Source of the DNA: Candidatus Poribacteria bacterium
GTDB taxonomy: Bacteria; Poribacteria; WGA-4E; WGA-3G
Assembly (NCBI GenBank): GCA_958295945.1
Contig: OY282386.1
Span: forward strand, 3,218,204-3,282,203
Length of the DNA stretch: 64,000 nt
Reading direction: 5' to 3'
Position 1 is the stretch's first letter. Every line of letters begins with the position of its first letter. The notes under the pieces were generated by a model. The model searched no databases, had not been told where the DNA came from, and worked only from the letters and a program-made list of their open reading frames with translations. Positions 21,524-38,098 of the stretch are shown piece by piece. The translations under genes and the position numbers were made by a program.

Positions 21524-24496
21524 ATGCCAAAAAGACGCGAAACCACAATCACAAATGAACTGGTGAACATCTTACGCCACATGCGCCACGGATGGGAACT
21601 TGAAACAGAAGTCAACGCTTTCATTAAAGGCAACAGCGAACTTGATGCCATTGTGATTGAACACGGTAGGGAACCCGTTGGCATTGAAGCGAAATTTGCA
21701 ACCACTACCAACGCTAAAAATCTCATAACACAAGCGGAAACAAGACTTGTTCTTGAACTTGAAACTGAATATCACGTTGTCGGGAAAACCCTCAATAACG
21801 TCATGGCAATCCTTTATCCTGACCGTTTTAAGACGATGGCGGGAAAGGATATCAATCTGCAACTTCGCACTGCTGATGACCTACAATACAAACTTGTGAA
21901 TACAGTCGGTGATACCGTAGGACACTTCCCAGAAAACGGATGGGCAGAAGGCACCGTGGGCGACATTGCAAATGCTCTGCACGTAGGTGCAATGCCGAAC
22001 TCTCAACTTGAAGCGGCGGCAGAAGAGATGGAGAAAAGCATCAATAAGGCAGCTTACCTACTTGAAGATGCTATCGTTGACCATCCTGCTATCGCCAAGA
22101 AAATTGAGACAATTTTACACCAAGAGGTCCTTTCTAAAGACGATTCGTCTGTAGGCGCGATCTCCGAATCGCGACTCCCCAACGTCCAAACGCTCCGTAT
22201 GGCAGCACTAATTATCACCGATGCTTTTGTGTTTCAGAGTTCTCTCGCTGGTAAAGCAGAGATGGAATCTGTCCGCTCACTCCGCCAACTCCTACCGACA
22301 ATTGACTATGCCGATGTCATTGATGACTGGAACACAATCCTCAAAGTCAATTACCGTCCAATCTTTGAGGATGCGCGTAACCTCGTTGAGGCACTTGCGA
22401 CTGATGACAGACTTGTCAAATATATTTTAAAACTCCTATGTGAAGCTGCCAAAGACCTTGTTGATACAGGCATCGCGCAGATACACGAACTCTCGGGTAT
22501 TGTGTTCCAGAAGTTAATCACCGATAGGAAATATGTAAAGGCGAACTATACGCTCCCGGAAAGTGCTGTGCTGCTGTCTACGCTTGTGATGCCTGAGTTG
22601 CCGAAAGGGAAACTTCCAAAAGTTGCAGACTTCGCCTGTGGTACAGGTGCGTTGCTTAACGGTGTCTATCAACGTATTTTATCACTGTATGAACAAGCGG
22701 GTAAAAATGGTAGGGATATCCATCAGAAAATGTTAGAGGAAAACATTGGCGGTGTAGATATTATGCCGAATGCGACACATCTTACGGCTGCTGCACTTGC
22801 GAGCACGTACGCAGGTGTCAAAATCGGTGGGACTCAAATAGTTACTGCCCCCTACGGTGTAATGGAGAATGGAGATTACGCGATTGGCTCATTGGAATTG
22901 CTTGATGATATGAAACTATTTGACACAGAGGCTGAGCAAGTAGGCGGTAAGGAGAACACCGTAGTTAAACTCCAGCAGACGTTCCAGCATGGTGATGTTG
23001 ATATTGTGATACAGAATCCACCCTTTACAAGACCGGGGTCGGATAGTAATTCCGATGTTCCAAAATCTACATTCCAAAGTAGTGATCGTCCCGAAAAAGA
23101 TCAGAAGTTGATGCAAGCCTCGTTGAAATCCAAAAAGACACGGGTAACTGATGGGACTAACGGTTTCGTTTCTGCTTTTGTAGATTTAGCAGACAAAAAA
23201 CTTAGAAATAGCGGCATAATGGGTTTCATCTTACCTCTGACAGTGTTGCGATCTCCCACTACACGTAAACTTCGTGATATGTGGGCAACTGAATATCACA
23301 ATGTAGTCGTGATAACCATGGCACAAGCAAAAGCAGAAGACTGCACATTCTCTGCAGACACTACTATGGCAGAATGTATTGTTGTCGCAACAAAAGGCGT
23401 AGATAAGAACACAGGACGCGGAAAGTTTGTCTGTCTAACTGATAAGCCACATAGTTCACTTGAATCTGTTGAAATAGCAAATCGGATTAACAGAAGCAGC
23501 GAAACACGAAGACTTGAAGATGCCCCTGACGGAGGGGATACTATTAGCGTTGGAAACACAAACAGCGGGCTGATGTTGGACTGTCCAATAAAAAATGGTG
23601 TTCCGTGGATCGCAACACGAGCAAGATCCATGGCATTACTACAGATGGCAAACAAGCTGACAATTGGGAAACTGCACTTTCCGATGTCAAGAGATACTGT
23701 TCCTATTCATATCTGCCAAGTCCAAGACATTGCAAAGGTCGGTTCAGCAGATTCTTATAGAAAAAAAGGCGGTCCGTTTATTATGGTGGAGGGATGTGAA
23801 CCGAACAGTGATGGCTACGATGCTTTATGGAAAGTTAACGCCCCTTTACAACGTGCTATGATTGCTGAACCTGATTATACCGCGATACCGCGTGCAGATG
23901 ATAATGCAATGGTTAAGCGAGTCTTGGATTGTTTCAGTAAAACCCATTATCACATTAATCTCGGTTTCAGCGCAAATTCAATTATATCTTCCTTTACTGA
24001 GAGATCCTCTATTGGAATCCGTTCAATGATAAACGTCTTACTTAATGACTCGCGTCACGAAATTGCTTGGACATTATGGTGCAACTCAAGTTTAGGTTTG
24101 TTTTGCCATTGGGCACACAGCAGCAAACAACAGATGGGACGTGGCACACTACGCCAGCAAACATTAGAAACGCTACCTACGTTGGACATCCGTGAACTCT
24201 CCGATGCGGCATTAGCAAATGCAGAGTCAATTTTTGAACGAATGAAATATAAACGGATGCTGCCTGTCAACGAATGCGCGCATGACCCTGTGCGTAAGGA
24301 GTTGGATCGCTGTCTGCTAACTGAGGTGTTGGGTATTACAAGTGATAACGTGCTTGAATCCATGCAAACTTTGCGTGAGATGCTCTGTGCTGAACCGAGT
24401 ATACACGGTGGGAAGCAGTCTCAATGTGATCTTGATGATGAGTTGGTGATGCTTAAGCGGAAGGGGATTGCTTTTCCGAGTTGGTATGTTGAGTAA
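21524..24496 (+). CDS. Restriction-modification-like fusion: PD-(D/E)XK domain plus N6-adenine methylase
   Basis: A 990-residue protein that looks like a one-polypeptide (type IIG-like) restriction-modification enzyme. N-terminal residues 40-70 carry a nuclease-type core (ELDAIVIEHG...GIEAKF). The methylase motif I is VADFACGTGALL near residue 368, and the catalytic motif IV is IQNPPFTRPGSD near residue 500. The C-terminal 300 residues would hold target recognition. A repeat-derived segment at 22150-22178 adds residues within SSVGAISESRLPN between a helical linker and QTLRMA. The ATG follows AAAGGAACAAT. Two further genes of the same group (24530, 25356) follow on the same strand. Confidence 0.85.
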   Translation: MPKRRETTITNELVNILRHMRHGWELETEVNAFIKGNSELDAIVIEHGREPVGIEAKFATTTNAKNLITQAETRLVLELETEYHVVGKTLNNVMAILYPDRFKTMAGKDINLQLRTADDLQYKLVNTVGDTVGHFPENGWAEGTVGDIANALHVGAMPNSQLEAAAEEMEKSINKAAYLLEDAIVDHPAIAKKIETILHQEVLSKDDSSVGAISESRLPNVQTLRMAALIITDAFVFQSSLAGKAEMESVRSLRQLLPTIDYADVIDDWNTILKVNYRPIFEDARNLVEALATDDRLVKYILKLLCEAAKDLVDTGIAQIHELSGIVFQKLITDRKYVKANYTLPESAVLLSTLVMPELPKGKLPKVADFACGTGALLNGVYQRILSLYEQAGKNGRDIHQKMLEENIGGVDIMPNATHLTAAALASTYAGVKIGGTQIVTAPYGVMENGDYAIGSLELLDDMKLFDTEAEQVGGKENTVVKLQQTFQHGDVDIVIQNPPFTRPGSDSNSDVPKSTFQSSDRPEKDQKLMQASLKSKKTRVTDGTNGFVSAFVDLADKKLRNSGIMGFILPLTVLRSPTTRKLRDMWATEYHNVVVITMAQAKAEDCTFSADTTMAECIVVATKGVDKNTGRGKFVCLTDKPHSSLESVEIANRINRSSETRRLEDAPDGGDTISVGNTNSGLMLDCPIKNGVPWIATRARSMALLQMANKLTIGKLHFPMSRDTVPIHICQVQDIAKVGSADSYRKKGGPFIMVEGCEPNSDGYDALWKVNAPLQRAMIAEPDYTAIPRADDNAMVKRVLDCFSKTHYHINLGFSANSIISSFTERSSIGIRSMINVLLNDSRHEIAWTLWCNSSLGLFCHWAHSSKQQMGRGTLRQQTLETLPTLDIRELSDAALANAESIFERMKYKRMLPVNECAHDPVRKELDRCLLTEVLGITSDNVLESMQTLREMLCAEPSIHGGKQSQCDLDDELVMLKRKGIAFPSWYVE
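22150..22178 (+). repeat. Half of a palindromic repeat element inside a coding sequence
   Basis: The core CGATCTCCGAATCGCGA, preceded by TGTAGG, is the same sequence as one half of the MITE-like elements at 29756-29889 and 37963-38098. With the 29.8-kb copy it agrees at 23 of the 24 positions from TGTAGG to the end of the core. Here it is read in frame in the nuclease-methylase gene. The second half of the element is absent. Confidence 0.8.
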
Positions 24497-24529: not shown

Positions 24530-25336
24530 ATGCCAAACAAGAGATACCAAGAATTGTTATTATCATCTCATAAGCAACTGGAGATGTCTGCAGAACAGAT
24601 CAGGAATTCAATTCCGACTCCGGGTGAAAGAGGAACACTAATTGAAGAAATGTTCAGATCTTATCTAGTGGAAATTCTACCCGAAAAAATAGGTGTATCT
24701 CAAGGATTTGTTATAGACTCTAATGGTCGTGAATCGAAACAAATGGATATTATCTTATACGATAAAATTAATACTCCTTGCATATTTACGAGTCCCGCTG
24801 CTCAGGTTTTCCCTGTTGAGGCCACATACGCTTGTGGTGAAATTAAAACGAGATTCAACACGAAAGAATTGATAGATAGTTTGGAAAAATGTTTAAGTTA
24901 TAAAAATCTTTGCCGGAAAGCTTATTTTTCTGAAACTAATAGCGTTATGAGACACTGCCCAAAATTTTTTGGAGAGGATAAAGAACATTGGCAATCAATC
25001 TTCTTTTGTATTTCTATTAAAAGCATGAGCGGTAGTACATTAAAGGGAAAATACCAGTACATCATAGAGGAAACTAACCTACCTGTACATAAGAGAATTG
25101 ATACGATATTTTCATTAGAGAGTACTGATAGCAAAAACATTTTAACGAATTTTAATGGAGGGTTTGACTTTCTTCCAAGCAAGAATAGTCGGTTATGTGC
25201 CATATATGTGGAAAAATCGTGGGGGTTATTTACTAATTTATTGTTGAGATACATGGTTCAAGCACCAACAGAACCTGTTAATATGTTATATTATGGAGGG
25301 AAATCCCTTGGCGATTACGCGAAATATAAATTGTAG
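24530..25336 (+). CDS. DUF6602-like predicted nuclease
   Basis: A 268-residue protein with a restriction-endonuclease-like core: SKQMDIILYD supplies the aspartate and YACGEIKTRF the E-x-K. The N-terminal helix pattern (GERGTLIEEMFRSYLVEILP followed by GVSQGFVIDSNG) is that of DUF6602-type proteins, which are often found beside methylases and defence genes. It starts 33 bases after the nuclease-methylase gene with an AAGGAG ribosome binding site. By eye its base composition is clearly more AT-rich than the methylase gene, so it may have joined the group later. The family assignment is from memory of the motif. Confidence 0.65.
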   Translation: MPNKRYQELLLSSHKQLEMSAEQIRNSIPTPGERGTLIEEMFRSYLVEILPEKIGVSQGFVIDSNGRESKQMDIILYDKINTPCIFTSPAAQVFPVEATYACGEIKTRFNTKELIDSLEKCLSYKNLCRKAYFSETNSVMRHCPKFFGEDKEHWQSIFFCISIKSMSGSTLKGKYQYIIEETNLPVHKRIDTIFSLESTDSKNILTNFNGGFDFLPSKNSRLCAIYVEKSWGLFTNLLLRYMVQAPTEPVNMLYYGGKSLGDYAKYKL

Positions 25337-29755: not shown

Positions 29756-29889
29756 TATGGTAGAATTTAGAATTAAATGAACATTAGGAATTGTAGGAGG
29801 GAACTCCGATTCCCGATAATCACTGAATTAAATCGCGATTCGGAGATCGCTCCTACAGTGGTGTATAATTATTTTCATACTTCACCATA
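29756..29889. repeat. 134-bp MITE-like palindromic element, copy 1
   Basis: The ends TATGGTAGAATTT (29756) and, inverted, TATGGTGAAGTATG (to 29889) form imperfect terminal inverted repeats. Inside are two GC-rich arms, TGTAGGAGGGAACTCCGATT and its near complement ending CGGAGATCGCTCCTACA. In reverse complement the element matches the one at 37963-38098 in order, spacing and length. It encodes nothing. Confidence 0.8.
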
Positions 29890-37962: not shown

Positions 37963-38098
37963 TATGGTGAAGTATTGAATTAATTAGACATTTCACATGT
38001 CCGAGCGATCTCCGAATCGCGATGGACCGGACGAACAGTCGGGAATCGGAGTTCCCTCGGACAGTTCTGACATGTCCAATTAACTCTAAAAACTACCA
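37963..38098. repeat. 136-bp MITE-like palindromic element, copy 2
   Basis: It begins TATGGTGAAGTAT and ends with the inverted TGGTAG-type terminus at 38098. The inner arms GAGCGATCTCCGAATCGCG and CGGGAATCGGAGTTCCC are the same as in the element at 29756-29889 (opposite orientation). The second-layer arms differ (ACATGTCCGAG here) but still pair with each other, so the hairpin is conserved although the sequence changed. Confidence 0.8.

Follow-up and report, generated by a model that had tools for sequence, protein, structure and literature searches.

How did a short palindromic repeat come to lie, in frame, inside a nuclease-methylase gene of a Candidatus Poribacteria bacterium, and what has happened at that site since? 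We analysed a stretch of 64,000 nucleotides (the window) of this genome, a 5.34-Mb single contig. An earlier note, made from the letters of the window, had described a mobile palindrome captured in a linker of the gene, and the repeat is indeed found there, in frame and with a close match to a genome-wide repeat (Table 1). Positions 22150-22174 read TGTAGGCGCGATCTCCGAATCGCGA and lie inside the ORF at 21524-24496; 22150-22178 read TGTAGGCGCGATCTCCGAATCGCGACTCC, where the translation of the ORF runs ...SSVGAISESRLPN..., and the 24 nucleotides at 22151-22174 encode VGAISESR, residues 210-217 of the host protein. The best explanation as a whole, which we consider very probably correct, is that a single REP of the GTAG superfamily entered the linker of this gene and survived in frame, and that the site has varied since.

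Table 1. Coordinates of the host gene, the repeat within it and the intergenic elements of the window
Feature	Position in window	Strand	Evidence
Host gene, 990-aa nuclease-methylase	21524..24496	+	Eco57I-type methylase domain, PF07669, 1.3e-9
Variable linker, residues 205-219, site of REP entry	22136..22180	+	Insert-free homologues up to 91% identity, net +5 residues
REP singlet (T)GTAG-GC-GCGAT-CTCCGA-ATCGC-GA in host gene	22150..22174	+	24/25 positions match genome-wide REP TGTAGGAGCGATCTCCGAATCGCGA
MITE-like element, ends TATGGT...ACCATA, two inverted REPs	29756..29889	+	Family of 47 matching genome segments; alignment
REP arm, stem GGGAA/TTCCC, GTAGGAGGGAACTCCGATTCCCGA	29793..29816	+	
REP arm, stem GCGAT/ATCGC, GTAGGAGCGATCTCCGAATCGCGA, type found in host gene	29833..29856	-	
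Second MITE-like element, both REP tags GTCCGAG instead of GTAGGAG	37963..38098	-	Alignment
REP arm GTCCGAGCGATCTCCGAATCGCGA	37999..38022	+	
REP arm GTCCGAGGGAACTCCGATTCCCGA	38039..38062	-	

The 17-nt core of the repeat occurs in 90 exact copies genome-wide, or 104 when up to one mismatch is allowed, and the reversed core, used as a control, gave no match in the whole genome. Within the window, five matches were found at up to three mismatches (0.35 expected; none of 100 shuffles reached five), and the 16-mer GATCTCCGAATCGCGA is exact at 22159-22174 (+), 29833-29848 (-) and 38007-38022 (+). In the unit, a GTAG tag is followed by two unpaired bases, then by a 5-bp stem that encloses CTCCGA, and last by GA, with the generic layout GTAG-GA-[GCGAT-CTCCGA-ATCGC]-GA; the tag of the gene copy, at 22151-22154, is terminal and unpaired. 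Stems vary with compensation (GCGAT/ATCGC and GGGAA/TTCCC in the window, GCGAC/GTCGC and GGGGAT/ATCCCC among the matched stems in relatives), while the tag and a trailing CGA stay constant. Judged by its sequence, the repeat is one GTAG-tagged REP, and its build comes closest to that of GTAG-1, the member of the GTAG superfamily found in Pseudomonas, Xanthomonas and Thauera (Di Nocera et al. 2013, PMC3733652); the GTAG-1 build is described in the same paper and tabulated in a study of REPs and of REP-associated tyrosine transposases, or RAYTs (Nunvar et al. 2010, PMC2817692). Elsewhere in the genome (L104, 3569268-3569459), six REP cores stand in tandem with a 35-bp period. The REP 24-mer had no exact match among IMG/VR viral contigs.

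The host-gene copy is exceptional for its location. Within the fetched genome regions we listed 114 REP copies at up to three mismatches, preceded by the tag GTAGGAG in 80 cases and GTCCGAG in 17. Coding signal on both sides was seen at only one of the 114, the copy in the host gene; two further listed copies score as coding but sit at the end of an ORF. With no coding filter applied, ORFs of 200 aa or more take in four of the 114, although they make up 85% of the window; the REP is therefore strongly intergenic. The view that coding insertions can be tolerated therefore stands with a qualification: in this genome they are tolerated but rare, a single listed copy being well supported as coding.

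The two intergenic elements named in the earlier note exist and are intergenic, and by their layout they are MITE-like shells, larger carriers of two inverted REPs. Their two arms are alike in tag and loop and differ in stem (GCGAT/ATCGC versus GGGAA/TTCCC), and the same REP is found also in other element contexts of this genome. The gene copy had been taken for half of such an element; instead, it matches one REP unit per element, and the flanks in the gene have no similarity to the MITE-like elements beyond the REP, the outer terminal inverted repeats being absent. We therefore weighed the idea that a TATGGT...ACCATA MITE inserted into the gene and was then trimmed to half its palindrome. 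The MITE does contain the same 24-nt unit, and most REP copies of this genome lie in MITE-like contexts, but the missing outer sequence makes this history very improbable, as do the bases after the gene REP, which are CTCC where the MITE has TTTAATTCAG or TGGACC, the many solo REPs of relatives, which are followed by CGACTCC or similar, and the RAYT association that these REPs have of their own. Some elements, the one at 37963-38098 among them, have GTCCGAG in place of the tag GTAGGAG, frequently in the two arms together, as if the outer pairing TGTAGGAG...CTCCTACA were being kept. Clustering of the element families by their flanks chained into one group and was left unused.

The protein that received the repeat has, as its best PADLOC match, a type IIG REase-MTase, and this match is weak. 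D41 and E55-x-K57 are invariant in the alignment of its N-terminal part, a putative PD-(D/E)xK nuclease. An AlphaFold2 model of residues 1-420 is of moderate confidence (mean pLDDT 68); in it, residues 205-216 have pLDDT below 50 and are flanked by two helices, C-terminal to the putative nuclease domain. The REP residues lie within or adjoining this low-confidence stretch, and the linker that carries them is thus modelled as disordered. In insert-free homologues the linker reads, for example, SKEEDNAEEKPN. The gene adjoining the nuclease-methylase (24530-25336) encodes a NucC-like / PD-DExK nuclease (DUF6602), and the two genes may form a defence island. Over residues ~500-900, homologues of the host gene fall into two classes, with ~85% or 55-60% nucleotide identity and similar ends, as if the target-recognition part had been swapped between alleles. 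A mosaic breakpoint at the REP, prompted by identities of 92% versus 73% in two parts of the gene, was rejected: windowed identity puts the break near residues 480-500 and 900, away from the linker, in what is probably the target-recognition part.

Homologues of the host gene were found in 39 of the 60 genomes searched, its own included, and at 34 loci of named genomes; the named relatives that carry it are all Poribacteria MAGs. At the linker these loci are in different states. Insert-free relatives of ~90% identity read EVSSKTEDNTEEKPNVQTLRMA where the host protein reads EVLSKDDSSVGAISESRLPNVQTLRMA; a single REP copy is present at L265, L256, L257, L258, L259, L268 and L270, two tandem copies with a 36-bp period at L263 and L267, and in-frame deletions within the REP region at L253, L264 and L266. 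More distant family members miss the whole linker and have no VGAISESR. Orthologues without the repeat-encoded residues thus exist and the frame is kept, as in an intragenic REP. The earlier note had predicted homologues shorter by 10-20 residues. Insert-free homologues were found, but the close ones are shorter by five, the net gain being this small because acidic native residues of the linker were replaced. In the carriers, the REP has taken the place of native linker sequence instead of being cleanly inserted into it, and an exact pre-insertion allele is not known; both points count against the explanation that we prefer.

When the linker was left out of the tree, the 13 carriers failed to group as one clade (AU p 1e-15), and five or more changes are required. 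Between two carrier groups, the 24 nucleotides coding VGAISESR differ at 0-2 positions, with 0-1 of six fourfold sites changed, against 49-64% of the fourfold sites in the flanks; similarly, the first copy at L263 is the same as that at L258 over 24 nucleotides, while their flanks differ by 24%. Near-frozen REP codons in carriers that are not one clade indicate repeat DNA rather than an old conserved peptide, and as a cause the latter is strongly disfavoured by this codon pattern. That VGAISESR is an ordinary or conserved protein motif, matching the repeat by chance, we regard as vanishingly improbable in spite of the identical peptide in about ten carriers: the exact 17-mer is common to about 90 mostly intergenic sites, the near-invariance of synonymous sites already contradicts such a motif, unrelated proteins that contain this DNA have the identical peptide, and the peptide is absent from distant family members.

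A different history is one ancient REP insertion in the ancestor of the family, followed by many losses, with the DNA conserved by selection or conversion. All carriers agree in position, strand and frame, and several have similar upstream bases (GATTC...TCTGTAGG), as this history would have it. We nevertheless judge it unlikely, given the scattered carriers and the changes that they force, the clade-specific linkers of the empty alleles, and REP codons that are too alike given their flanks. The shared place, strand and frame of copies in different clades are also unexpected for independent random insertions, and to that extent count against entry of a REP followed by variation, the explanation favoured above. 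Transfer of alleles by recombination is possible and would mimic either history, ancient or repeated insertion. The codon pattern suggests that REPs were inserted repeatedly, that alleles were transferred or that genomic REPs converted the gene copies, three processes that are not separable here.

The earlier note had proposed a search of the genome for other genes with the same core, and REPs were found in other genes of a relative. Four of the 46 REP copies sampled in the relatives G020, G036, G038 and G039 are inside ORFs that show coding signal. All four belong to G020, and the genes are a phosphodiester glycosidase (PF09992), rpoC (PF04998), an SMC-like ATPase (PF02463) and a DNA methylase, whose ORF (L323) reads the REP in another frame (QQRESRCGDRSYQHL). 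For each of the first three, 14 orthologues lack the REP residues. The REP is a clean insert of ~9 residues in the glycosidase, stands in place of ~15 native residues in rpoC and is part of a longer insert in the SMC-like gene, and the same REP DNA gives the same peptide in these unrelated proteins. Presence and absence among homologues, together with these REPs in other genes of a relative, support the mobility of the element that had been proposed. The rpoC of G020 (L325/L385) has a very large repeat-rich insertion, and an HNH-like motif (CEQCG...HVHHRRG...LCIGCH) lies within it. In the SMC-like ATPase (L331/L370), the insert includes a stretch of ~40 residues with about 35 further occurrences in G020, which looks like another repeat family translated in frame. 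Tentatively, and with more doubt than conviction, one could go further: in these bacteria the REP may serve again and again as a prefabricated linker module, taken up more than once at this site and also in rpoC, the phosphodiester glycosidase and the SMC-like ATPase. The frame would usually be that of VGAISESR, native residues would often be lost in exchange, and a continuing traffic of REPs would keep the in-gene copies identical.

Many relatives have RAYTs that match NF047646 at 121-132 bits (cut-off 80) and that have on their flanks REPs of this build, with stems of their own (L213, L218/L285, L223, L237, L241, L242, L250, L291, L292 and others). Neither this genome nor the relatives sampled yielded a RAYT beside exactly this REP; the closest are L285, whose flanking REP, GCGAT-ctccgc-ATCGC, is one loop base off the gene REP, and L291, which differs in the stem (flanking REPs of the GGGAA/TTCCC and GGGAT/ATCCC types). 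A Y1 transposase of this genome (L172, 1609796-1610140) was rejected as the mover, being of IS200 type and adjoining four flanking palindromes of another type (CGCTCC-gct-GGAGCG), and a weak Y1 match at 4508523 (L231) is a different protein. The genome also has a second REP system, in which a 272-aa RAYT-like transposase (L313, 2314263-2314649) is flanked by GTAGCACAAACTG...CAGTTTGTG REPs.

We infer that the mover was a RAYT, of the kind associated with relatives of this REP in the same bacterial order, and that it acted by a single-strand route. The REP would have entered the gene by insertion or copy-in, at the expense of a few residues of the linker, which is acidic and non-conserved and joins the putative nuclease domain to the helical/methylase part that follows. 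The REP is open in five of six reading frames (by inspection). An intact frame and the lack of structure in the linker would have let it survive, presumably with neutral effect on the enzyme. Later variation among related species would then have produced the empty, single-copy, 36-bp tandem duplication and in-frame hairpin deletion states.

A catalogue of intragenic GTAG REPs, many of which lie in replication and repair genes, appeared in 2013 (PMC3733652). The repeat described here resembles the GTAG REPs in its tag, two unpaired bases, short hairpin, trailing bases and high copy number, in being mostly intergenic with some copies in frame in genes, and in the REP-flanked RAYTs of relatives. 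It differs from them in its 6-base loop and 5-bp stem, in the many copies held in MITE-like shells, and in that this genome has no RAYT beside this REP; Poribacteria are, moreover, absent from the published list (PMC3733652). The likeness to Rickettsia palindromic elements (RPE; PMC3733652) drawn in the earlier note holds for behaviour, both being short palindromic repeats that sit in frame in genes that stay open, with insert-free homologues here, but not for family: the R. conorii RPEs examined in that paper end in CGTC, not in the GTAG of the gene copy, and CGTC elements have no associated RAYT. The inner part of both intergenic elements is like a REPIN, an inverted REP pair (Bertels and Rainey 2011, PMC3116915), with the tags outside. 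The differences from a REPIN are that the gene copy is a singlet and that the pairs here have two stem types inside an outer terminal-repeat element.

Our literature search found no paper on REPs in Poribacteria. Since intragenic GTAG REPs and Rickettsia elements are already documented, what is new here is the phylum, its REP-RAYT systems and the allelic series at one gene. With these results, the known range of RAYT-associated GTAG REPs, coding insertions included, comes to take in the sponge-dwelling Poribacteria. The results also give a presence/absence series (empty, one, two and decayed) at one gene across close species. This series is a good setting for studying how REPs move, whether they are neutral within genes, and whether genomic REPs go on rewriting gene copies.
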